64,000 nucleotides of DNA from Malaciobacter halophilus (GTDB lineage Bacteria > Campylobacterota > Campylobacteria > Campylobacterales > Arcobacteraceae): the NCBI RefSeq assembly GCF_002837275.1, contig NZ_NXIF01000023.1, positions 62,001-126,000 of the forward strand, in the 5' to 3' direction. Made by a program: the position numbers and the translations under genes. This document shows, piece after piece, positions 33,540 through 51,441 of this stretch (the first letter of the stretch is position 1; every line of letters starts with the position of its first letter). The notes under the pieces are model-generated. The model searched no databases, was not told the origin of the DNA, and saw only the letters and a list, made by a program, of their open reading frames with translations.

Positions 33540-34178
33540 ATGAAAACTATCGAGATCAAAAATGCTTTGCCGTTGTCAGTATTTTCCCATGAGATGCTTT
33601 ATGCACTACTGGAAAAATCAGTGAGCAATGTAAATGACAAGATCTCAAACCTTGTAAAAAGTGGTGAGCTTGTGCGACTCAAAAAAGGTTTTTACACTTT
33701 TTCTAAAGCCTACCTCACAAAACCGATAGATCTGATCAGTGTTGCAAATACACTTTATACACCATCATATGTCTCTTTTGACTATGCACTTAGCTACTAT
33801 GGGATGATACCTGAGCGAGTGAGTGAGATCACATCTGCTACAAGCAAAAACGAAAAGCTTTTTGAAACTCCAGTTGGAAGATTTAGCTATAAAAAAGTGC
33901 CACTTAAAGCTTACTCTGTAGGGATTGACTGGTTCTACGATGAAGATGAGGGCGGAAGATTTATAGCGACACCAGAAAAAGCACTATGCGATAAGATACG
34001 CTACGACAGAGGTATCGGTACTCTTACTCAAGGTGCGATGGTAGATTACCTCAAATATGATCTACGGTTAGAGATCACAAAGCCTTTGAATGCCGAACTT
34101 ATTGAAGAGATAGCCACCGCATATAGATCACGAAATCTAAAAACTCTCTCTCAAGTAGTCGAAAAAGGAAAAGTATGA
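33540..34178 (+). CDS. abiEi: AbiEi-type antitoxin / transcriptional regulator
   Basis: 212 residues. N-terminal winged helix (about 20-60, NLVKSGELVRLKKGFYTF) and a C-terminal AbiEi domain (YVSFDYALSYYGMIPE, FIATPEKALCDKI) as in type IV AbiE systems, where it represses the operon and opposes the toxin. It overlaps the toxin gene by ATGA. Codon use is less AT-rich than the chromosome flanks. Confidence 0.88.
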   Translation: MKTIEIKNALPLSVFSHEMLYALLEKSVSNVNDKISNLVKSGELVRLKKGFYTFSKAYLTKPIDLISVANTLYTPSYVSFDYALSYYGMIPERVSEITSATSKNEKLFETPVGRFSYKKVPLKAYSVGIDWFYDEDEGGRFIATPEKALCDKIRYDRGIGTLTQGAMVDYLKYDLRLEITKPLNAELIEEIATAYRSRNLKTLSQVVEKGKV

Positions 34179-35068
34179 CACATCCGGCACTTATAAAAAT
34201 GCTTGAAAAATATGACTTCTCAGATTCCAATGCCAGCTTTGATGCTCTACGAGAGATACTGCAAGAGATAGTGCTACTTGGTCTTTATGATGCAGGATTT
34301 TTTAAGCACGCTGCGTTTTATGGTGGAACAGCTCTGCGAATACTGCATAATCTTCCAAGGTTTTCAGAAGACTTGGACTTTTCACTGCTTGAGACAAATT
34401 CAGAGTTTAATCTCAAGCCTTATGAAGAAACGATCATATCTACTTTAAAAGCATTTGGTTTTGATGTGAGTATAGAGATAAAAGAGAAAAACAATAGTAG
34501 TGCTATAGCTTCAGCGTTTGTAAAAGGCAACACTATTGAGCATCTTATAAATATAAATGCTCCAAAAGATATAACGAACAAAATCCATAAAGACCAAGCC
34601 GTAAAGATCAAACTAGAAGTAGATACAAATCCGCCACTAGACTTTGAAACTGAGAATGTTATACGACTGACTCCACGCCCGTTTTCGATAAACGCTTTCA
34701 CATTGCCGTCTCTCTATGCAGGAAAAATGCACGCCATACTATGCCGTGCATGGAGTAGCAGACCAAAAGGACGTGACTGGTATGATCTTGTCTGGTACAT
34801 AGCAAACGATGTAGAACTAGATACAAAACACTTAAAAGAGAGACTCTCTCAAAGCTGTAAATACCTAGAAGCAAATGAGATAAATATTCCAGATGAGCTT
34901 ACAAAACAAAATATCAAAGAACTGCTTTTACAAAGGATACAAAGTCTTGATGTAGCCAAAGCAAAAAATGATGTACAGCCATTTATAAAAGATATGAGAG
35001 AGATAGAACTTTGGTCAAAAGAGTTTTTTATGGCAGTAGTAGAAAATATCAAAATCAAGGAGAAATAA
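34175..35068 (+). CDS. abiEii: AbiEii-type nucleotidyltransferase toxin
   Basis: 297 residues. The nucleotidyltransferase core GGTALRILHNLPRFSEDLDF lies at about 49-69, with the GG(S/T) and DxD catalytic motifs intact. A later conserved block is YAGKMHAILCRAW, then KGRDWYDLVWY. AbiEii toxins act in abortive phage defence. It is paired with AbiEi by a four-base overlap and sits directly upstream of a restriction system. Confidence 0.9.
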   Translation: MTHPALIKMLEKYDFSDSNASFDALREILQEIVLLGLYDAGFFKHAAFYGGTALRILHNLPRFSEDLDFSLLETNSEFNLKPYEETIISTLKAFGFDVSIEIKEKNNSSAIASAFVKGNTIEHLININAPKDITNKIHKDQAVKIKLEVDTNPPLDFETENVIRLTPRPFSINAFTLPSLYAGKMHAILCRAWSSRPKGRDWYDLVWYIANDVELDTKHLKERLSQSCKYLEANEINIPDELTKQNIKELLLQRIQSLDVAKAKNDVQPFIKDMREIELWSKEFFMAVVENIKIKEK

Positions 35069-35070
35069 TT

Positions 35071-35295
35071 ATGGAGGAAGTAAAAACTGTAATGCAAGAA
35101 GAGTTTACAAAAAACTATGATTTTTACAAAGATTATGATGATATGGTAATCCATAAAGAAACAGAACAAATCTTCAAAACTAACTTTATTAACGGCATGG
35201 TTCAGCTAGTGCCAGTGAGTAATCAAACAGCTATGGAAAAGATCGAGCAAGGGCTTAGTGAGTTTGCAAAAGAACTCAAAAGACAAGGGTTTTAA
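35071..35295 (+). CDS. Small acidic protein between AbiE and HsdR
   Basis: 74 residues from the ATG at 35071, which has AAGGAGAAATAATT upstream and lies two bases after the AbiEii stop. Charged and helical (EEVKTVMQEEFTKNYDFYKDY; IEQGLSEFAKELKRQGF). The longer frame from 35011 would overlap the toxin gene and lacks a ribosome site. No family recognised. Confidence 0.6.
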   Translation: MEEVKTVMQEEFTKNYDFYKDYDDMVIHKETEQIFKTNFINGMVQLVPVSNQTAMEKIEQGLSEFAKELKRQGF

Positions 35296-35364
35296 AAGCA
35301 AAAAATAACGCTTTTATGCAAGATATGATAATATAAAAACAATTAATAATTTTAGGTTTGTGGT

Positions 35365-37749
35365 ATGTCAAAGAAAAATTTAACAGAACGAGATATTTGT
35401 ACAAAGTATATAACTCCAGCACTCATTGAGTCTGGCTGGAACTTACACTCTCAATTTAGAGAGGAGGTAACCTTTTTTACAAACGGTCGCATCTATGTTC
35501 ACGGTAAGATGGTACGCAGAGGTGAGCAAAAAAGAGCTGACTATATTCTTTACTATAAACCAAACATCCCAATAGCTATCATCGAAGCAAAAGACAACAA
35601 ACACAGCATCGGTGACGGTATGCAGCAAGGTCTAAGCTATGCAGAGATTTTAGACATACCTTTTGTATACAGTACAAACGGTGAAGGCTTTTTAGAGCAT
35701 GATCCAACATTAACTCATGGTGCACTTGAAAAAGAGATAACACTAGGTGATTTTCCATCTCCAGATGAGCTTTGGCAAAGATACAAAAAATACAGAGGTA
35801 TCGAGGAAGATGAAGCGGAAAAAGTGGCACTTTCTCCTTATTACATCGATGATCCAAAAAGAGAGCCAAGGTATTATCAAAAAAATGCCATCAATAGAAC
35901 TATAGAAGCAATTGCTAAGGGGCAAAAAAGAATCTTACTTGTAATGGCAACAGGTACTGGAAAAACTTACACCGCATTTCAGATTATCTATAGACTTTAT
36001 AAATCAAGAAAAGCCAAAAGGATCCTATTTTTAGCGGATAGAAACATACTTGTAGATCAAACAAAGATAGGAGACTTTAAACACTTCGGTGACAAGATGA
36101 CCAAAGTTACAAATAGAACTATCGATAAATCTTTTGAAATATATCTTTCCCTTTATCAAGCCATTACAGGCAACAGCGAAGAGAAAAAGATATTTAAAGA
36201 GTTTAGCCGTGACTTTTTTGATCTTATTGTCATAGACGAAGCACATCGTGGAAGTGCAGCAGAGGACAGCCAATGGAGAGAGATACTGGAGTATTTTGAC
36301 AGTGCTGTGCAAATAGGTCTTACTGCAACTCCAAAAGAGACAAAATATGTGAGCAATATCTCATACTTTGGTGAGCCAGTATATACATACTCTCTCAAAC
36401 AGGGAATAGATGACGGTTTCTTGGCTCCTTATAAAGTTATCCGATTATCGTTAGATAAAGATGTTGAAGGGTGGCGACCATACAACGGACAAACCGATGA
36501 TAAGGGTGAAGAGATCGAGGACAGAGAGTACAACACAAAAGACTTTGATAAAAACCTTATCCTTACTCAAAGAACTAATCTTGTAGCCAAAAAGGTTACT
36601 GAATATCTCAACGAAAATGATCCTTACATGAAAAGTATCGTCTTTTGTGTAGATATAGATCATGCAGAGCGGATGCGTCAAGCTCTTGTAAATGCGAACC
36701 CTGCTATGGCAAAAGAGAGTAGAAAATATGTTATGCGTATCACAGGCGACAATGAAGAAGGAAAAAAAGAACTAGATAACTTCATAGACCCAGAATCTAC
36801 ATACCCAGTCATCGCAACTACCTCAAAACTTATGACAACTGGTGTGGATGCTCAAACGACAGGGCTAATTGTGCTTGATAGCAACATCGGCTCAATGACA
36901 GAATTTAAGCAGATCATAGGCCGTGGTACTCGAATAAACGAGACTTACGGGAAACTCTATTTTACGATCATGGACTTTAGAAATGTGACAAGACTTTTTG
37001 CTGATCCAGACTTTGATGGTGACCCAGTACAAATTTATGAGCCAAAAGGTGATGACCCTATAACACCTCCAGAAGATGAGATACCAGAGGAGTTTAGTGA
37101 CACAGTAAACGAACCTACTGATGAGTCATACGGTGAAACTCCAGATGTGTCTATAACAGATGGTGAGGACGGCACTTCTAAACCTACTCGACACATAGTA
37201 AGCGGTGTAAAAGTAAAGGTTCTAAATAAAAGAGTGCAGTACATCGGAGCAGACGGTAAGCTCATCACAGAGTCACTTGTGGACTATAGTCGTAAAAACA
37301 TCAAAAAAGCCTATGCAAGTTTAGATGAGTTTTTACAAGAGTGGAGCACGGCAGAACAAAAAGAAGCGATAATCAAAGCTCTAAGCGATCAAGGTGTGTT
37401 TTTTGATGAACTTGAGAGTGAAGTTGGTAAAGAGGGGCTAGATCCGTTTGACCTTATATGTCATATAGCATTTGACAGACCAGCTCTTACAAGGGCAGAG
37501 CGTGCAGGCAAACTAAAGAAAAACAACTACTTTGAGAAATACACAGGCATTGCAAAAGAGGTTATAAACGCACTCTTAGACAAATATACCGAATCGGGCA
37601 TAGAGAGTATAGAAGATATATCAGTCTTAAAAGTACCGCCGTTTAACGAATACGGCACTATAAAAGAGCTTACAAAACTTTTTGGCGGTGGAAGAACTGG
37701 GTATCAGTCACTTATCAAAGAGATAGAACAACATTTATACGCATCATAA
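35365..37749 (+). CDS. hsdR: Type I restriction enzyme, R subunit
   Basis: 794 residues. N-terminal nuclease domain with a PD-(D/E)xK-like arrangement (RADYILYY, then IAIIEAKD, about 57-77). Walker A is MATGTGKT at about 193-200 and the helicase box is VIDEAHRG at about 288-295. A second helicase domain follows (TSKLMTTGVDAQTT, IIGRGTRI), and a C-terminal part as in EcoEI-type R subunits. It translocates DNA and cleaves unmodified sites. First gene of hsdR-M-S. Confidence 0.95.
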   Translation: MSKKNLTERDICTKYITPALIESGWNLHSQFREEVTFFTNGRIYVHGKMVRRGEQKRADYILYYKPNIPIAIIEAKDNKHSIGDGMQQGLSYAEILDIPFVYSTNGEGFLEHDPTLTHGALEKEITLGDFPSPDELWQRYKKYRGIEEDEAEKVALSPYYIDDPKREPRYYQKNAINRTIEAIAKGQKRILLVMATGTGKTYTAFQIIYRLYKSRKAKRILFLADRNILVDQTKIGDFKHFGDKMTKVTNRTIDKSFEIYLSLYQAITGNSEEKKIFKEFSRDFFDLIVIDEAHRGSAAEDSQWREILEYFDSAVQIGLTATPKETKYVSNISYFGEPVYTYSLKQGIDDGFLAPYKVIRLSLDKDVEGWRPYNGQTDDKGEEIEDREYNTKDFDKNLILTQRTNLVAKKVTEYLNENDPYMKSIVFCVDIDHAERMRQALVNANPAMAKESRKYVMRITGDNEEGKKELDNFIDPESTYPVIATTSKLMTTGVDAQTTGLIVLDSNIGSMTEFKQIIGRGTRINETYGKLYFTIMDFRNVTRLFADPDFDGDPVQIYEPKGDDPITPPEDEIPEEFSDTVNEPTDESYGETPDVSITDGEDGTSKPTRHIVSGVKVKVLNKRVQYIGADGKLITESLVDYSRKNIKKAYASLDEFLQEWSTAEQKEAIIKALSDQGVFFDELESEVGKEGLDPFDLICHIAFDRPALTRAERAGKLKKNNYFEKYTGIAKEVINALLDKYTESGIESIEDISVLKVPPFNEYGTIKELTKLFGGGRTGYQSLIKEIEQHLYAS

Positions 37750-37774
37750 CAATTTTAAAAGGAACAAATAAATT

Positions 37775-39205
37775 ATGGCAGATATTTCAAATATCGTAAA
37801 ATCAATTCAAAACATTATGAGAACAGATACGGGTGTTGATGGGGATGCTCAAAGAATTTCACAGCTTGTATGGATGCTTTTTCTAAAAGTATTTGACGCA
37901 AAAGAGGAAGAATTTGAACTAGAAAGTGAAAATTATAAATCTCCAATCCCTGAAAAACTTAGATGGAGAAGCTGGGCTACAGACGATGAGGGGCTTACGG
38001 GTGAAGAGCTTATGCTTTTTATAAACAACGAACTTTTTCCTACGCTAAAAGAGCTTGATATCACTACATCTAACGCTTACGCTCCACTTGTAAAAGGGAT
38101 GTTTGAAGATGCTTACAACTATATGAAGTCTGGAACTCTTTTAAGACAAGTAGTCAATAAACTTGAAGAGATAAACTTCGACAATCTCTCAGATAGACAC
38201 CTTTTCAATGACATGTACGAGCAGATACTTAAAGACCTTCAAAGTGCAGGAAACGCAGGAGAATACTATACGCCAAGAGCTGTGACAGAGTTTATAGTGC
38301 AGATGGTAGATCCAAAACTGGGTGAGAAAGTATTTGACCCTGCATGTGGAACAGGAGGGTTTCTAATCAGCTCCATAAACCACATCATGAAAAGCGATGT
38401 AAAAACTGCTGAAGATAAAAAGACACTAGAACATACGATCCAAGGGATAGAAAAAAAGCAGCTCCCTTACATGCTATGTCTTACCAACCTCATACTTCAC
38501 GATATAGAAACGCCAAACATCAGACACGATAACTCGCTCTCATACCCCCTAAAAGACATCACTCCAAATGAAAGAGTGGACTGCATCGTGGCAAATCCTC
38601 CTTTTGGAGGAACGGAAGAGCAAGGGATAGAAAACAATTTCCCAGCAAGTTACCGTACAAGAGAAACAGCAGACCTGTTTTTACTGCTTTTTATACAGAT
38701 GTTAAAACCAAGAGGAAGAGCTGGGATAGTTCTGCCAGACGGTACGCTTTTTGGTGATGGTGTAACTGCAAGGATAAAAGAGAAACTTCTTGGAGAGTGT
38801 AACCTACACACTATAGTAAGACTTCCAAACGGGATATTTGCTCCATATACGGACATAAACACAAACTTGCTTTTCTTCACAAAAGGGGAACCGACAAAAG
38901 AGATCTGGTACTACGAGCAGCCACTTCCACAAGGGTATAAAAAATACACCAAAACAAAGCCTGTAAAACTGCAAGATTTTGATGAGCTGAAAAGCTGGTG
39001 GAATGATAGAGCTGAAAATGAACAAGCTTACAAAGTAGATATAGACACTATCAAAGCAAATAATTTTAACATCGATGTAAAAAATCCTCATAAGGGTGAA
39101 GAAGAGGAAGAACTTACAACAAATGAGATTATAGATAAGATCGAAGCTTCGATGAGTAAAAGTGTTGAACTACTAGAGCAAATTAGAAAAGAGGCTCAAG
39201 AGTAA
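37775..39205 (+). CDS. hsdM: Type I modification methylase, M subunit
   Basis: 476 residues. N-terminal helical HsdM domain, SAM-binding motif FDPACGTGGFL at about 187-197, and the N6-adenine catalytic motif NPPFGG at about 273-278. The C-terminus is a short helix that contacts HsdS. It methylates the adenine of the target and forms M2S1 with HsdS. Its stop codon overlaps the hsdS start. Confidence 0.95.
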   Translation: MADISNIVKSIQNIMRTDTGVDGDAQRISQLVWMLFLKVFDAKEEEFELESENYKSPIPEKLRWRSWATDDEGLTGEELMLFINNELFPTLKELDITTSNAYAPLVKGMFEDAYNYMKSGTLLRQVVNKLEEINFDNLSDRHLFNDMYEQILKDLQSAGNAGEYYTPRAVTEFIVQMVDPKLGEKVFDPACGTGGFLISSINHIMKSDVKTAEDKKTLEHTIQGIEKKQLPYMLCLTNLILHDIETPNIRHDNSLSYPLKDITPNERVDCIVANPPFGGTEEQGIENNFPASYRTRETADLFLLLFIQMLKPRGRAGIVLPDGTLFGDGVTARIKEKLLGECNLHTIVRLPNGIFAPYTDINTNLLFFTKGEPTKEIWYYEQPLPQGYKKYTKTKPVKLQDFDELKSWWNDRAENEQAYKVDIDTIKANNFNIDVKNPHKGEEEEELTTNEIIDKIEASMSKSVELLEQIRKEAQE

Positions 39206-41097
39206 TGAACTCGAAAATACAAGCAATAAGTTCATTTTTAACAGAGCGGAAAGAACGATTAACACCAGACGAAGCAAATAAACTCAATTTAAAACGGATT
39301 GAGAAAATAGATTTTAGCGGACAAATTCATCTAGTAGAAAACAAACCTACAAAAACAGGTATGATAGTTGTCAAAAAAGGCGATTTGGTAATCTCTGGTA
39401 TAAATGTAGCTAAAGGAGCTTTGGCAGTATATGAGGGTGATGAAGATGTTGTTGCGACTATTCATTATTCTTCTTATAGCTTTGATAAAGAGAAGATAGA
39501 TATAAATTTTTTAAAATGGTTTTTAAAAAGTCCAGCATTTGTAGATGCTCTTGAAGAACAAACAGGTAGAGGAATAAAAACTGAGATAAAAGCTAAAAAG
39601 TTTTTGTCTTTAAAAATACCTATCCCTACACTGAATGAGCAGAAAAAAATTGAATCTAATCTCAATAAGTTTGAAGAAAAATATAATAAGGTTTCAGAAG
39701 AACTCGAAATACAATCAGAACTTATAAATAAACTTAGAAGCTCAATACTTAGTGATGCAGTAAGCGGTAAGTTAGTCCCACAAGATCCAAATGATGAAAG
39801 TGCTGAAGTCTTACTAGAAAAGATAAAAGCAGAAAAAGAGAAGCTCATCAAAGAGGGAAAAATAAAAAAACAAAAACCTCTACTGCCAATAAGTGAAGAT
39901 GAAATACCTTATAAACTTCCAGATGGATGGGTTTGGTGTAGATTAAGGGATGTTAGTAAATATATTACAGATGGAGAACATCAAACACCGCCAAGAATAA
40001 GCTTTGGTAAAAAACTCTTATCTGCTAAAAATGTTCGTGATGGATTTTTAGATTATGATAATTGTGACTATATTTCAGAAGAACATTATGAAAAAGCTAG
40101 AAATAGATGTTTACCAGAAATAGGAGACTTACTCATTGTATCTGTTGGAGGTACTATAGGAAGAACAAGTCTAATCCTTGAAAATAGTGATTTTGCTTTA
40201 GTTAGAAGTGTTGCCTTGATCAAACCATTGTTTATTTCTTCTGAATACTTGAGAGTTGTTTTAAATTCCAAACTTTTACAAGATATGATAAATTTGACTA
40301 AAAGAGGTGGAGCACAGCCTTGTTTATATCTTACATCGATCAATCAGTTTTTATTCCCTTTACCATCTCTGGAGGAACAAAAACGAATAGTTGAAAAAGT
40401 AGAAAAACTTATGGCTACATGTGATGCATTGGAACTTGAAGTACAAAAAAGCAAAAGGCAAACAGAAAAACTAATGCAAAGCGTACTTAAAGAGGCGTTT
40501 TCTAACTCAGATACATCAAAAAGTGAGAAGAAAGAACGAAAAGCTTCAAAAGCTTTTCAAAGAAGTGTTTTAGCAGCATATCTTGTAGATAATAGCCTTG
40601 AAGACAAGTATTTTGGTCATGTAAAACTTCAAAAAATGCTTTTTATGTGTGAAGCGGTGAACAGTTTGGATTTTGACTCAAATTACAAACGACATGCAAT
40701 GGGACCGTATGATCCAAAACTTATACGCTCAGTAGATTCTCAACTCAAAAGAAGTAAATGGTTTGAATGTAAAAAAATGGATGGAGATAAAGGAAGATAT
40801 GTTTATTCACCTTTAGAAAAACAAGATGAGTATAAAAAATATTTAGATAGATATTTCAACCTTGAAAACATAGAAAAAATGTTTGCTCTTATGAAACCAA
40901 TGACTACACTTCAAGCTGAGATAGTTGCTACTCTTTATAGCGTGTATAAAGATTTAAAACCTACGCAACAAAATATCTCAAGTCAAATGTTAATCGAAGA
41001 AGCAAGAAACAATTGGCATGATAGAAAAAAGACTATTGAAGTAAAAAAATGGGAAAGAGCTATTGAGTGGATGAGAGAAAAACAACTCATTAGTTAG
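39205..41097 (+). CDS. hsdS: Type I specificity subunit with an added C-terminal domain
   Basis: 630 residues; usual HsdS is about 400-450. Two target-recognition domains are visible (about 1-140 and 235-395), each followed by a coiled-coil conserved region (LNEQKKIESNLNKFEEKY; LEEQKRIVEKVEKLMATCDALE). From about residue 450 comes an extra domain of about 180 residues (FGHVKLQKMLFMCEAVN, then RHAMGPYDPKLIRSV) resembling SocA/DUF4065 Panacea-type domains. The core sets methylation specificity. The role of the extension is unknown. Confidence 0.9.
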   Translation: MNSKIQAISSFLTERKERLTPDEANKLNLKRIEKIDFSGQIHLVENKPTKTGMIVVKKGDLVISGINVAKGALAVYEGDEDVVATIHYSSYSFDKEKIDINFLKWFLKSPAFVDALEEQTGRGIKTEIKAKKFLSLKIPIPTLNEQKKIESNLNKFEEKYNKVSEELEIQSELINKLRSSILSDAVSGKLVPQDPNDESAEVLLEKIKAEKEKLIKEGKIKKQKPLLPISEDEIPYKLPDGWVWCRLRDVSKYITDGEHQTPPRISFGKKLLSAKNVRDGFLDYDNCDYISEEHYEKARNRCLPEIGDLLIVSVGGTIGRTSLILENSDFALVRSVALIKPLFISSEYLRVVLNSKLLQDMINLTKRGGAQPCLYLTSINQFLFPLPSLEEQKRIVEKVEKLMATCDALELEVQKSKRQTEKLMQSVLKEAFSNSDTSKSEKKERKASKAFQRSVLAAYLVDNSLEDKYFGHVKLQKMLFMCEAVNSLDFDSNYKRHAMGPYDPKLIRSVDSQLKRSKWFECKKMDGDKGRYVYSPLEKQDEYKKYLDRYFNLENIEKMFALMKPMTTLQAEIVATLYSVYKDLKPTQQNISSQMLIEEARNNWHDRKKTIEVKKWERAIEWMREKQLIS

Positions 41098-41108
41098 GAG
41101 AATAAGTT

Positions 41109-41957
41109 ATGAAAAACATTAATTTTAATTTATATCGTTATCAAATTTTGCCAAAAGACAGATATTTTCAAGGAAGTTTATTTGGAGAGATCAAAACGGT
41201 CGAAGATTTGATTGCCCAGAAAAATAATTTGTTTTATAGTTCTATCAAAACTATTATTAACTGGAAAGGCAAGAAAAGCTCTCTCAAGGGGCAGCTGGAG
41301 TATGACCAAGATGATTTTTTACTTTTTCGGTTTGCTCCTAAAAGAACGACAAAAATAGAAAATGAAAATTTTGAAGAAGAGCAGCTTGAGAACTGGCCGT
41401 CTATTTTAGTCGGTATTTGGAATCATCCAGAAAAACAGATGATTATGATCCAAGACAGGAAAGTAGCATTTTCGGATACAAAAGTAGTTTTGAAAATTTT
41501 AGCAGAGTCAATCAACAATGTTTTAGAGTCAAAACAGCTCAAACTTTACGGGGAGCCTATTTTTCATAAAGAAGCTTTTTGGAGCATCATTGAACAGTAT
41601 GATAGAAAGATAAAAAATATCAAATTTGAACTTATTACTCCAAATATGGCAAATATCTCTGGAGTTTTAAGTGATGACCTTAAAAACTTGGCAAAAGGAA
41701 CAAATACTGCAAAAACATTACTAGAAATTGATGCAGATGATGACTCAACGCTTCATATAGATCAGCAAAATAAACAAGTGGGAGACCTTGTTGAGTATGC
41801 TAGTGAGGGTGGTGGTAATATCTCTCTAAAAGCAAAAGGTGTTAAAAAAAGAATTCAAACAGCAAATGCCGTGAAGTCGGTAGAGATAGGAGAAATTGAA
41901 ATTTCTGGTGATAATGCAGAAAGGATTGCAGAGATTTTGAAAAGAGCATTAGAATGA
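41109..41957 (+). CDS. Unrecognised cytosolic protein in the hsd operon
   Basis: 282 residues, no signal or membrane segment. Notable stretches are YRYQILPKDRYFQGSLFGEI at the start, ENWPSILVGIWNHPEKQM at about 96-113, FELITPNMANISGVLSDDLK at about 177, and a Gly-rich YASEGGGNISLKAKGVKKRI near 235. It starts 11 bases after hsdS with a GGAG ribosome site and overlaps the following membrane-protein gene by ATGA. It could be the sensor or partner of that protein. No family named with confidence. Confidence 0.7.
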   Translation: MKNINFNLYRYQILPKDRYFQGSLFGEIKTVEDLIAQKNNLFYSSIKTIINWKGKKSSLKGQLEYDQDDFLLFRFAPKRTTKIENENFEEEQLENWPSILVGIWNHPEKQMIMIQDRKVAFSDTKVVLKILAESINNVLESKQLKLYGEPIFHKEAFWSIIEQYDRKIKNIKFELITPNMANISGVLSDDLKNLAKGTNTAKTLLEIDADDDSTLHIDQQNKQVGDLVEYASEGGGNISLKAKGVKKRIQTANAVKSVEIGEIEISGDNAERIAEILKRALE

Positions 41958-42391
41958 AAAATAATATCATTTTCAATATTTTACTTTCAATCGGTGCTGG
42001 TTATTTACTTACAGAGTTACAGTCATTTTTAGGTACAACATACTTGACAAGTTTTTTGAAGCAAAATCTTATTACCTTGCTTGTTGCCTTGATAGCTATC
42101 AATTCTGCTACATTAAGTATAGTATTGACAAAAGTGAGAGAGCTATTAGATAAAAGTGGGCAGCAAGGAGCTTTTGCTAACACAAAAAGGCAGATGATTT
42201 TATCTGTAAATGAACAGGTCGTACTTATTGTCGTAGCAATGCTGTTGTTGATAGTGCAAGATTCTGATTTTATAAAATCACATGTAGAGTATGTGACTTT
42301 TTTGAATGTGTTGATTATTGGATGTTTTGTATATGCCTTGAGAATTTTACATGATACGGCTAAAAGCGTTTTTGTGATTTTAGATTACTGA
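41954..42391 (+). CDS. Small four-helix membrane protein in the hsd operon
   Basis: 145 residues with four predicted membrane helices (about 5-25, 38-60, 86-106 and 114-134). Between helices 2 and 3 is a basic cytoplasmic loop (TKVRELLDKSGQQGAFANTK). It starts within the stop codon of the preceding gene (ATGA), so the two are likely made together. The form resembles small membrane effectors of abortive defence systems, but no homology is recognised. Confidence 0.7.
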   Translation: MKNNIIFNILLSIGAGYLLTELQSFLGTTYLTSFLKQNLITLLVALIAINSATLSIVLTKVRELLDKSGQQGAFANTKRQMILSVNEQVVLIVVAMLLLIVQDSDFIKSHVEYVTFLNVLIIGCFVYALRILHDTAKSVFVILDY

Positions 42392-42406
42392 TAAAGGAGA
42401 TATAGA

Positions 42407-43015
42407 ATGAATTTTCAATTTAAAAACTGGAAAGCTTTTAGAGATCAGTTGAAGTTACAAGACATCAAGATAGTAACTTTTGATTTTGCATATGAAAAAT
42501 GTGAATTTAAAATTATATACTCCATGGAACAAAATGCTTTTTATATTGCCAAAAGAGGTACACAGACAGTTTTTGTTTTATTTTTGGATTGGTACAAAAT
42601 TACAGATAGCATAAATAAAGACGCATACGATCAATTAAAAGTGTGTAAAGACCAGCCATTTGACCCTAAAAAGCCATACAACCCATTTGATTTTTTACTA
42701 GCCTTAGATAATCACTTAAAAGAAAATGTTAAATTTAAAAAGACAACAAAGACGGAATATTTTACAACGACTAAAAAAGCTATTCCTGATGAAGAGAAGA
42801 TATATTTTCAAAGATGGATTCCACATCTAAATGATAATAAAAATGTAACTGATAAAAATCTTGAAAAAGTTAAAAAAATTTTGGGTTTTCATTATGCAAC
42901 TTTTTGTAAAGAGAACAATGTAAGTGTAGGGTTTACAAATATTCCAAATGACTTGTCTTTTGAAGTAATTGAAGATCCTAAAAAAGTTTTAGATGAACAA
43001 AAGAAAAAATTATAA
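42407..43015 (+). CDS. Unrecognised protein, last gene of the hsd-linked operon
   Basis: 202 residues, soluble, Lys- and aromatic-rich (VFVLFLDWYKITDS; KPYNPFDFLLALDNHL; FQRWIPHL), with a likely alpha/beta N-terminal half and a charged C-terminal tail. The ribosome site AAAGGAGATATAGA precedes the ATG, 15 bases after the membrane-protein gene. An inverted repeat follows the stop. No family recognised. Confidence 0.65.
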   Translation: MNFQFKNWKAFRDQLKLQDIKIVTFDFAYEKCEFKIIYSMEQNAFYIAKRGTQTVFVLFLDWYKITDSINKDAYDQLKVCKDQPFDPKKPYNPFDFLLALDNHLKENVKFKKTTKTEYFTTTKKAIPDEEKIYFQRWIPHLNDNKNVTDKNLEKVKKILGFHYATFCKENNVSVGFTNIPNDLSFEVIEDPKKVLDEQKKKL

Positions 43016-46351: not shown

Positions 46352-46368
46352 CACGCTGTCTTGAGGGG
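46352..46368 (+). other. attR core of the island
   Basis: CACGCTGTCTTGAGGGG, one mismatch from attL at 29983-29999. From TCTTGAGGGG rightwards it continues as the 3' half of the interrupted tRNA-Leu. Confidence 0.85.
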
Positions 46369-46413
46369 GTAGTGCCTTCGGGTGTATGGGTTCAAGTCCC
46401 ATCGGTCGCACCA
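46369..46413 (+). pseudogene. 3' half of the split tRNA-Leu(GAG)
   Basis: Contains the anticodon-stem 3' strand (GGTAG, its first bases shared with the att core), variable arm TGCC-TTCG-GGTG, T-arm ATGGG/CCCAT, acceptor CGGTCGC and CCA. It complements the acceptor GCGACCG at 29960. The island separates it from its promoter and 5' half. Confidence 0.9.
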
Positions 46414-48116: not shown

Positions 48117-48449
48117 TTAGTTAATTTCTAAACTAAGTTGTTCTTCTAAAACTTTTCTGACTTTAGGTGCTAAATAAAGTCTTTTACTTTGGTATCTAGG
48201 GTCTCTTTCATCATCCCCTTGTACAATAAATCCATACTCAATTAATGTTCTTGTATGTGTTGACACACTATTGAAAGTCCAATTAAGATTTTCTTTAAAA
48301 TATGCTTGATTTTCTCCTTCTTTTTTTGCAATTACAATAAGTAGTAATATAGTTCTTAGCTGAAATCCTTTTAAACTTTTGGTTTTATGGTTCATAGGTT
48401 CAAGCTCATCCATACCTTTTAAAAGCCTTATAGCTTGATTTATATTCAC
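48117..48449 (-). CDS. Winged-helix (MarR-like) regulator
   Basis: 110 residues. A helical N-terminus (GFQLRTILLLIVIAKKEG), then NWTFNSVSTHTRTLIEYGFIVQG as the recognition helix and DERDPRYQSKRLYLAPKVRKVL as the wing. Such proteins regulate genes of integrated elements. The palindrome before the 599-residue protein gene, on the opposite strand, is a possible target. Binding is inferred. Confidence 0.65.
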   Translation of the reverse strand: MNINQAIRLLKGMDELEPMNHKTKSLKGFQLRTILLLIVIAKKEGENQAYFKENLNWTFNSVSTHTRTLIEYGFIVQGDDERDPRYQSKRLYLAPKVRKVLEEQLSLEIN

Positions 48450-48892
48450 TCTTACTCCTTTAATAATATAATTAAGTATGTAATTTTACAAAATAAAAAA
48501 TTAGTAAAAAATATCTCAAACCCTATAATGTAAACCACAGTAAAAGTTATCCCCCATACCCCCTCTTAAGTTCACAGATAAGAACTTAAAGGGAAACTTC
48601 AAGTACAACTAAAGTAACTTTTCTTATTCTGTGAGGAGCCTACAAGCTCTTTTTCTATCTTTAGTCTAATGTTTGTATTAAGAAATGAGTTCTAGTCTTC
48701 CTATGTGACCTTACAGACTTCTATAGTCATTATCTATCAACCTATAACCATGGTTTTAACTATATATAAGTAATATTTAATGTTATTTCTATTAAAATTT
48801 CTTAAAGGTTTAGGAACCTGCTGCATACCACTGATATAATGGTTATGACAAATTCCTTCTGCAAAGAAAACTATATTTCCACATTTTTTATA
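48450..48892. other. Long non-coding spacer in the second element
   Basis: About 440 bases without a gene. It contains an inverted repeat TTAAGTTC (48566-48573) / GAACTTAA (48582-48589), which can extend through flanking C/G runs. The rest shows nothing I can assign. Its size leaves room for a small RNA or recombination sites, but none is demonstrated. Confidence 0.4.
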
Positions 48893-48911
48893 TCGTAAAT
48901 ATAATTTACGA
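48893..48911. promoter_or_regulatory. Palindromic operator candidate before the FGE-like/NYN operon
   Basis: TCGTAAAT-ATA-ATTTACGA, perfect 8-bp arms with a 3-bp centre, 10 bases before the ATG at 48922 and touching the GAGG ribosome site. The size and symmetry fit a dimeric repressor; occupancy would also block translation initiation signals. Confidence 0.6.
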
Positions 48912-48921
48912 GGAAAAACCT

Positions 48922-50721
48922 ATGAATTTAAAATATTTCTTTACAAAAGAAGATTGTAGTTGTCCGTTAAATAGTTTATCTCCAGAAGAGATTAAAAAAT
49001 CATATTTAAAAGAGTTATCAAAACATGGTATAAAAAAAGTAAGATACTTGAACTTGGTATCTAAAACTTTAGGATTTCAAGATTGGACAGAGTACCAGAA
49101 AGAGTACATTGATAATATTCTCCCGTTTCTTGAGAAAAATGGTTTAAAACAATATGCACCAAACAATGAAAGTGAGATTCTAAAATCTCAACATGGTGAT
49201 GTGAGTTTTTCATATCGTCAAATTGCAGATAGAATTTTTTTGTCTAATAAACCTATTCCAAAAAAAATATTTACAGGTCATAGTTGTAAAATTGATAATT
49301 TTTATTACTATTATAGAGGTCTTCCTTTTAACATTAATAATAAAATATTTACAAACTATGAAAAACTACATAAAAATAAAAATGATTTACAATCTTTTAT
49401 TAAATCAGAAATCTATACTAATTTAAAAGAAGAACAAGAACTTGATTATCTTATAACTTCACTTGTAATATTTCCAAGTTTAAAAAATCTTATTGGGGAT
49501 ACATTTATTATTGATGATAGTAATGAAAAAGAACATATTGGACTGTTATATAAACATAACCAAGGGTTATCAAATGAATATATATTCCAAGAAATAGGAG
49601 ATATTATTCATAAACAATTAAAAGAATTAGAAAAAGGTTGGATAGAAATAATTCCTTTTAATAAAAACCTTGTTTTCTTAAAAGCAAAAGATGGAAGTTA
49701 TGATTTTGTTTTTAGGAGTTTAAGAGATAAACCTTTTATTTCTGAATTTGGAAAATATATTAGAACAAAAAACATACCATCCCTACTTAATGAAGAGTAT
49801 GACTTTGACAGATGGCTATATTTTGGATTTAAAGAAAAGAATAAAAAAATAAAAGAGATTAAACCTTTTGATATTTGGCTTGAAAGAGATTCTCATTTAG
49901 CAGAAATAGAATATTATAAAAATAATGTACCTCAAAACTATCCTGGTCAAAATAGTATACTTAAAAATTATTACACTATAAAAGGAATTTATTCTTATTA
50001 TAAAAAAGAAACAAAGAAAGCATTAAAAGATTTTGTTCCTTTTGAATTAGAGGATAAAATATTATATGTATCAAACTTAATTACAATAAAAGACTTTGAA
50101 GAGTTTTATCTAACAAAAGATAAAGATAATCAAAGCTATCTAGAAACTAGACTAGATACACTTGAAGATTTATCTATGATGAATGCAGAAGATAATGAAA
50201 ATGCCCCTATTAGTGTAACTTGGTATGATGCAATTGCTTATTGTAGATACATTGAAAATAAATATAATGTACATGCACGACTGTTATCTCAAGATGAATT
50301 TGAACTAATTTGTCCACCTTTAATTAATAAAGAATACAATCGTGAAGACACAGATATGAATTTAAATTATGAACTAAATAAATCATATACTCCATTTACT
50401 AATGATATAAAAAATGAATTAAATTTTTTCTATGGAAATAAGCAACTATCTTCACCTCCACTTTACATGAATGATTTTGAAAATGTAGTTATGAAATGGG
50501 CTAAGCCATTAGAGTTTACAGAAAATAATGAACTATTATTTTGTACTAATGAAAGATTTAATGAATGGACAAATGAGTTTAGAGATGGCCGTTCAAGATT
50601 TGTGAGTGCTAAATATTATATTGATAAAAATTATTGGGTTTTAGCTTCATCTACTATGAAATATAAATATAGAAAAGTTGGTTTTAGAGTATGTTATGAA
50701 ACACTAAAGGATATAAAATGA
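48922..50721 (+). CDS. Large protein with a formylglycine-generating-enzyme-like C-terminal domain
   Basis: 599 residues, cytosolic. The N-terminal region (about 20-65) has the pattern YLNLVSKTLGFQDWTEYQ, a short helical motif seen in mobile-element proteins. The C-terminal third reads like an FGE/SUMF1 (C-type-lectin-fold) domain: APISVTWYDAIAYCRYIENK, then RLLSQDEFELICPP, FNEWTNEF and RKVGFRVCYE. The middle (70-420) is unrecognised. It overlaps the NYN nuclease gene by ATGA. The copper-binding Cys pair of true FGEs is not evident, so it may be a binding module. Confidence 0.65.
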   Translation: MNLKYFFTKEDCSCPLNSLSPEEIKKSYLKELSKHGIKKVRYLNLVSKTLGFQDWTEYQKEYIDNILPFLEKNGLKQYAPNNESEILKSQHGDVSFSYRQIADRIFLSNKPIPKKIFTGHSCKIDNFYYYYRGLPFNINNKIFTNYEKLHKNKNDLQSFIKSEIYTNLKEEQELDYLITSLVIFPSLKNLIGDTFIIDDSNEKEHIGLLYKHNQGLSNEYIFQEIGDIIHKQLKELEKGWIEIIPFNKNLVFLKAKDGSYDFVFRSLRDKPFISEFGKYIRTKNIPSLLNEEYDFDRWLYFGFKEKNKKIKEIKPFDIWLERDSHLAEIEYYKNNVPQNYPGQNSILKNYYTIKGIYSYYKKETKKALKDFVPFELEDKILYVSNLITIKDFEEFYLTKDKDNQSYLETRLDTLEDLSMMNAEDNENAPISVTWYDAIAYCRYIENKYNVHARLLSQDEFELICPPLINKEYNREDTDMNLNYELNKSYTPFTNDIKNELNFFYGNKQLSSPPLYMNDFENVVMKWAKPLEFTENNELLFCTNERFNEWTNEFRDGRSRFVSAKYYIDKNYWVLASSTMKYKYRKVGFRVCYETLKDIK

Positions 50722-51398
50722 ATGATAAAAAAATAGCTGTATTCTTTGACTGTGATAATATAAATGCAAAATACATAGATGATGTATTTAATGAGTTAGC
50801 TAATATTGGTGAAGTGATTATTAGACAAGCAATAAAAGATTGGACTAGCCCTCATCATAAGGACTGGAATCAAGGACTATTAGAAGAACATGGAATTGAA
50901 CCTATTCAAGTATTTCCTTACAAAGCAGGGAAAAATACTGCTGACTTAAGAATTGTTAGAGGAGCAATGGAAATTATGACTTCTTCAGTTGTAGATACAG
51001 TTGCTATAGTATCAGGTGACAGTGATTTCATAGATTTAGCACGAACAATTAAATCAAAAGGTTTTACAGCAATTGGTTTTGGTGAATCAATAACAAAAGA
51101 CCCTATTAGAAATAGCTATTCTAAATTTTTTGAACTTCCAGTAAAAATAAAGAATAAAAAGATTGATACTAAAGACCCTATAAGCTTATTAAAAGATGCA
51201 ATAGAAAATCAAAAAGATGAAAGTGGATATGCTTATGTTGCTCAAATTGGTTCTTATTTACAAAATAAAAATTCATCTTTTAATGCTAAAAACTATGGCG
51301 CTAACACATGGGGAGATATAATTAAAAAATATGATAATTATTTTGAAGTTACCTATGCAGATTCAAAGAAAAGTGCAATGATTGTTAAACTAAAATAG
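50718..51398 (+). CDS. NYN-domain ribonuclease with LOTUS/OST-HTH-like C-terminus
   Basis: 226 residues. The NYN (PIN-like) nuclease fold has its acidic residues in place: FFDCDNINAKY at about 10-20, KNTADLRIV at about 74, and IVSGDSDFIDLA at about 97. The C-terminal 70 residues (PISLLKDAIENQKDESGYAYV, ANTWGDIIKKY, split by a short linker) look like a LOTUS/OST-HTH RNA-binding domain. Predicted metal-dependent RNase. Translationally coupled to the FGE-like gene, so the pair probably acts together. Confidence 0.8.
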   Translation: MNDKKIAVFFDCDNINAKYIDDVFNELANIGEVIIRQAIKDWTSPHHKDWNQGLLEEHGIEPIQVFPYKAGKNTADLRIVRGAMEIMTSSVVDTVAIVSGDSDFIDLARTIKSKGFTAIGFGESITKDPIRNSYSKFFELPVKIKNKKIDTKDPISLLKDAIENQKDESGYAYVAQIGSYLQNKNSSFNAKNYGANTWGDIIKKYDNYFEVTYADSKKSAMIVKLK

Positions 51399-51409
51399 TT
51401 AGTAACTAA

Positions 51410-51441
51410 AAGACAAAATCTATAATTGTAGATTTTGTCTT
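51410..51441. terminator. Terminator of the FGE-like/NYN operon
   Basis: Perfect 13-bp arms (AAGACAAAATCTA and its complement) around the loop TAATTG, 12 bases past the stop codon. The right arm is itself T-rich. Confidence 0.8.

Follow-up and report, generated by a model that had tools for sequence, protein, structure and literature searches.

A rare gene pair coupling a diverged FGE-like protein to a predicted NYN-LOTUS ribonuclease on an integrated element of Malaciobacter halophilus: a candidate anti-virus module

A window of 64,000 nucleotides of the Malaciobacter halophilus genome, the whole stretch of DNA analyzed here, carries two overlapping ORFs, gene 1 and gene 2, that encode an FGE-like protein and a NYN-LOTUS family nuclease and lie in a mobile, defence-rich tract. 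The pair is rare and coherent and, judged from its sequence and surroundings, looks like an undescribed anti-virus module. Its parts are of known kinds and the pairing itself is new to us; no description of it was found in the literature searched, a search whose scope left most subscription papers and preprints outside. The preferred reading, to which we give an even chance, is that the pair is a two-gene mobile anti-phage or anti-plasmid (anti-MGE) module composed of an FGE-like sensor or controller and a NYN-LOTUS RNase effector. Features of the locus, in window coordinates, were as follows.

46360-46413, plus strand: 3' half of tRNA-Leu, reading CTTGAGGGGG...GGTTCAAGTCCC...CGCACCA; attachment scar of the neighbouring element and left limit of the module segment
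46523-47743, plus strand: tyrosine integrase of the second element (PF00589, Phage_integrase, 8.3e-12; PF20172, DUF6538, 3.1e-9; phrog_1, 5.2e-35)
48117-48449, minus strand: small regulator-like ORF of 110 aa (phrog_11046 transcriptional regulator, 1.6e-5), action on the module not shown
48757-48921, plus strand: leader common to the window and genome G391 (MAFFT alignment)
48812-48857, no strand: imperfect inverted repeat around TATAAT at 48835-48840 (fold z)
48893-48911, no strand: 8-bp inverted repeat with a 3-nt centre, TCGTAAAT-ATA-ATTTACGA
48922-50721, plus strand: gene 1, FGE-like protein of 599 aa (Pfam and TIGR profiles, hhalign, alignment with G391)
50718-51398, plus strand: gene 2, predicted NYN + OST-HTH/LOTUS endoribonuclease of 226 aa (Pfam, alignment, PDB profile matches, Foldseek)
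51410-51441, plus strand: intrinsic terminator (hairpin, z = -6.1)

The stop codon of gene 1 and the start codon of gene 2 overlap by 4 nt (ATGA), an arrangement that would keep the two proteins in step, and the unit is closed by a terminator hairpin of 14 pairs with a loop of 4, matched by a hairpin in G391. The ORF coordinates and the hairpin bear out the ATGA-coupled unit with a strong terminator that had been described in a sequence-only reading of this DNA.

Gene 2 was matched by PF01936 (NYN; 3.6e-27, 96.1 bits against a cut-off of 24.2) and, at its C-terminus, by PF12872 (OST-HTH/LOTUS; 2.8e-8, 33.9 bits against a cut-off of 23.8), both above the curated Pfam cut-offs, in agreement with the NYN-LOTUS ribonuclease named earlier. 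Its acidic residues, singled out in the same reading for checking, are conserved: D11, D76, D101 and D103 were invariant in an alignment of 11 sequences (relatives 34-91% identical to the window's protein) and were also kept in phage relatives. Profile comparison with PDB entries gave matches to 2qip (the NYN protein VPA0982) and to the LOTUS structures 2kzv (7.5e-7) and 2kpm (2.5e-5), and an AlphaFold2 model built from five sequences (pLDDT 68.9) was matched by Foldseek to 2qip (1.4e-5), to the NYN domain of mouse and human MARF1 (3.9e-5) and to 2kpm. The conserved active-site residues of VPA0982 are D14, D92 and D115, a D13A variant of a Bacteroides NYN protein does not cleave RNA, and the CRISPR-associated NYN protein is a Mn-dependent RNase that requires the first of its three active-site aspartates (PMC11346440); the correspondence of the gene 2 aspartates to those of VPA0982 was taken from family motifs. 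By these matches gene 2 is a predicted endoribonuclease of the canonical NYN (LK/DUF88) plus OST-HTH/LOTUS kind with its catalytic aspartates intact, alike in architecture, catalytic residues and fold to the proteins described by Anantharaman, Zhang and Aravind (2010, PMC2848206), and it is a bacterial relative of animal MARF1. The conserved aspartates, together with the VPA0982 and Bacteroides data, argue strongly that it has RNase activity. In the proposed mechanism it would act as a metal-dependent endoribonuclease, its LOTUS (OST-HTH) winged helix holding the RNA.

Gene 1 is more diverged. Its residues 1-85 are conserved, 85-230 variable and 230-310 almost identical in G391, and an FGE-like region begins at about residue 387; profile searches matched nothing in residues 1-380 and recognised no NTPase, effector-associated or DNA-binding domain anywhere in the protein. 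The C-terminus had been called FGE/C-type-lectin-like. In favour of that assignment, residues 395-506 matched the TIGR04344/OvoA N-terminal region (5.5e-6) and hhalign against fourteen FGE domains gave 92% over 44 columns; on the other side, the match to PF03781 is partial and below threshold (21.1 bits, cut-off 23.3; residues 387-464 on profile positions 44-122 of 255), as it is in the G391 copy, and the GGS motif (G209-G210-S211), invariant or nearly so in FGE relatives (alignment A3), is lost, with VLASST read by eye where it would be expected near the C-terminal end. Single-sequence AlphaFold2 prediction (pLDDT 35.6) gave no usable FGE fold model. We take the C-terminus for a diverged FGE-like domain, partial and degenerate and probably non-catalytic. 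The best profile matches, to the OvoA N-terminal region and weakly to EgtB-IV (8vig, E 0.05), would also suit an active, substrate-modifying oxidoreductase of the FGE/EgtB/OvoA type that stands beside the nuclease by chance; these matches span one block only, neither GGS nor a DinB-type metal-binding HxxxHxE is seen in the gene 1 sequence, and the NYN coupling recurs in three genomes, and we consider this explanation very improbable. Under the preferred module reading, the variable segment (85-230) and the degenerate FGE-like C-terminus would sense or bind a product of the invader, or would restrain the nuclease; once triggered, the nuclease would cut RNA and the infection would be stopped, probably at a cost to the cell. 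We infer a physical complex of the two proteins, sensing, RNase activity and defence from this arrangement.

Of 104 Arcobacteraceae genomes, 3 carry gene 1, one of them with no more than a C-terminal stub where a contig ends; a scan of 397 Campylobacterota genomes added nothing but a generic FGE match. No relatives were found in phages, plasmids, IMG/VR or GTDB contigs by exact short peptides or tblastn, searches that distant relatives may escape, and the N-terminal 90 aa gave only weak matches to plasmids (E >= 0.3). In all three occurrences gene 1 lies directly upstream of, and overlaps, a NYN-LOTUS gene. The G391 pair is complete, with gene 1 80% and gene 2 91% identical to those of the window and the same ATGA overlap. 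The G417 contig starts close to the 3' end of gene 1, of which 31 open codons are left (77-81% identity across 21-22 aa); this stub overlaps a NYN-LOTUS gene by 11 nt, and an integrase then follows. The NYN protein linked to the stub is only 35-39% identical to gene 2, and Pfam at E 0.01 did not pick up its LOTUS half. NYN-LOTUS genes themselves are present in 48 of the 104 Arcobacteraceae genomes, mostly without gene 1, which adjoins 3 of about 49 genes of the family. The adjacency proposed from the sequence always holds in one direction, from the 599-residue protein to the nuclease (3 of 3), and usually does not hold in the other. In the gene 2 tree the FGE-linked label needs two changes, forced by the starred branches, and since the G417 partner belongs to a different lineage the FGE-NYN link is not one of simple co-inheritance. 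The coupling has accordingly arisen or been re-established on more than one occasion, with the caution that the G417 branch is long and its gene 1 a stub.

Two other accounts bear on this distribution. In the first, gene 1 neutralizes the NYN RNase in an addiction system of toxin-antitoxin type, and the pair stabilizes its element rather than fighting phage. A nuclease with an overlapping upstream partner on integrative elements, and an inverted repeat beside the start codon that is possibly autoregulatory, agree with this; an antitoxin of 599 aa would be very large, gene 1 has no recognised DNA-binding domain, and NYN-LOTUS relatives occur without any partner, so that the nuclease on its own is not toxic as a rule. 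We judge addiction unlikely. In the second, the pair is accessory RNA-processing or decay cargo with no role in conflict, gene 2 being a moved chromosomal NYN-LOTUS copy and gene 1 serving as an adaptor or as a modifying enzyme. NYN-LOTUS matches are widespread (166 of 397 Campylobacterota genomes) and are mostly standalone chromosomal genes, which makes a role in RNA turnover possible, and Anantharaman et al. proposed for the bacterial NYN + OST-HTH proteins a standalone RNA-degradation enzyme, having seen no conserved gene neighbourhood shared with other systems of RNA processing (PMC2848206). Against it, the window-type copy is patchy, both full examples sit among defence genes in variable tracts, and the clade of gene 2 in the tree includes copies linked to pVip and dGTPase genes. 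This account, too, we regard as rather unlikely. Counting against the preferred reading, a defence module, are the small number of loci, three with one of them the stub, the lack of a recognised NTPase or effector-associated domain in gene 1, and the want of a PADLOC match for either gene.

Comparison of the window with G391 gave dN/dS of about 0.37 for gene 1 and about 0.16 for gene 2, values which indicate that both genes are maintained as proteins under purifying selection. Within gene 1, residues 85-230 are 50% identical (dS 1.15, dN/dS 0.31) and residues 230-310 are 99% identical (dS 0.05), dS outside the variable segment being 0.05-0.29. A mosaic segment is accordingly delimited at window positions 49174-49611, about codons 85-230. 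Positive selection of residues 85-230 was considered and rejected: with dN/dS of 0.31 and dS raised over that of the flanks, recombination fits better. The mosaic appears best explained as an old allele exchange in which recombination swapped the variable segment.

The copies of gene 1 sit in or beside mobile elements. Window positions 30000-51689 form a strain-variable tract whose flanks are 97% identical in the sister genome G442 and whose cargo there is different, and the 3' half of tRNA-Leu has a 98% identical 62-bp match beside a different integrase in that genome; the sequence comparison marks this tract as a tRNA-Leu integration hot spot. The tRNA-Leu half separates a first element, which carries AbiE, type I restriction, DUF6037 and integrase genes, from the segment that contains its own integrase and the module; a right-hand attachment site of this second segment was not found. 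The view that the unit lies in an integrated element is upheld by the upstream tyrosine integrase and the strain-variable tract. In G391 the pair is located a few kb from Lamassu LmuA/B/C (7.6e-79, 4.4e-202 and 1.8e-31) and from the Septu-like candidate PDC-M62A/B (5.7e-98 and 1.9e-47). The defence-like context suggested at the outset is supported by the surroundings of both full copies and by related NYN genes that lie beside pVip and dGTPase genes; the toxin-type character suggested with it is possible. Neither gene matched a PADLOC (2023) family at E <= 1, and no reverse transcriptase of a diversity-generating retroelement turned up in a general scan of the neighbouring genes.

Some details of these neighbourhoods were recorded separately. 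The defence cargo of the adjacent element (33540-43015) comprises AbiEi/AbiEii, type I restriction-modification R/M/S genes and the DUF6037 protein, and two further ORFs of that element, 41109-41957 and 41954-42391, have no assigned family. In G391 (L004:5503-12645) LmuA is of the alpha/beta-hydrolase kind, and the Lamassu genes stand beside PDC-M62A/B (AAA ATPase and HNH) and an unassigned 186-aa ORF.

Some of the closest NYN-LOTUS relatives were also seen with other partners. In G429 (C8, L097:7342-8860) a pVip gene (PADLOC, 4e-85) overlaps a NYN-LOTUS gene by 11 nt; the NYN-LOTUS protein is 55% identical to that of the window, and a single in-frame TAG interrupts its gene close to the end. 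In G446 (C65, L098:20-1972) a NYN-LOTUS gene is followed after 9 bp by a dGTPase-family gene (PADLOC dGTPase, 1.7e-58) that could belong to defence or to housekeeping; a housekeeping dGTPase would also explain this neighbour and counts against the defence-module reading. Also among the closest relatives, the NYN-LOTUS copies of G444 and G443 and the second copy of G417 have no partner of the pVip or dGTPase type. A general pVip-NYN linkage was rejected, as no NYN gene stood beside pVip in 7 further strong pVip loci of the phylum or in 4 plasmid loci; given this and the in-frame TAG, the G429 arrangement is treated as a single observation. No paper linking prokaryotic viperin to NYN was found in the literature searched.

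With relatives behind other partners, viperin included, the NYN-LOTUS unit appears portable. A broader reading would have the NYN-LOTUS RNases act, in mobile elements of Campylobacterota, as a portable effector of defence combined with alternative partners (a variable FGE-like sensor, viperin, possibly dGTPase), and would make the FGE-like pair a new NTPase-free anti-phage system; we put it forward tentatively, as possible and somewhat doubtful. The recurrent coupling in defence islands and the pVip-coupled relative give a testable hint at the role of at least one NYN-LOTUS branch.

In contrast to the standalone enzyme of PMC2848206, gene 2 is tied here to one particular partner and carried by mobile elements. 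FGS/FGE-fold domains of conflict systems have been proposed as direct sensors or binders of invader molecules (PMC8195603), and the pair resembles the FGS systems with STAND or other NTPases (PMC7159879; PMC8195603) in that a large protein with an FGE-like domain is coupled to a putative effector in defence-related surroundings. It differs from them in that neither gene has an NTPase or effector-associated domain, no diversity-generating retroelement was seen, the FGE domain is partial and degenerate, and the effector is a predicted NYN-LOTUS RNase; the defence reading, if true, would extend the immune roles of the FGE-like fold to one without an NTPase. With the Bacteroides CRISPR-associated NYN (PMC11346440) it would share a NYN endoribonuclease in a defence role, proposed here for the pair, whereas it has no CRISPR link and has an added LOTUS domain. 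Likeness to the prokaryotic viperins lies in the same-clade NYN-LOTUS gene that overlaps pVip in G429; the partner is different, and that combination was seen once, with the NYN gene interrupted.

Upstream of gene 1, about 130 bp of the leader closest to the gene are nearly identical in the window and G391 (MAFFT), and a search of the 104 genomes gave only short and weak matches outside G391. The repeat at 48893-48911 includes TATAAT and abuts the ribosome-binding site GAGGAA (48910-48915). It had been taken for a perfect 19-bp palindrome serving as an operator under tight repression, a candidate that was rejected as stated: the sequence consists of 8-bp arms around a 3-nt centre, ten such repeats occur in the AT-rich window, which makes this one by itself ordinary and leaves a repressor operator unproven, and no repressor was identified for it. 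The repeat is indeed present upstream of the G391 homologue, where it is conserved only together with the entire leader of about 130 bp, and its conservation is for that reason not independent evidence. No Rfam family matched the leader. The imperfect repeat at 48812-48857 (fold z -3.0 on the minus strand and +0.2 on the plus strand) is possibly a promoter or RNA element. On the minus strand, leader positions 48795-48921, nearly identical in another genus, fold better than shuffled sequences (z -3.8, a comparison of two near-identical sequences giving no covariation test), and this fold may correspond to an antisense RNA or a DNA structure.
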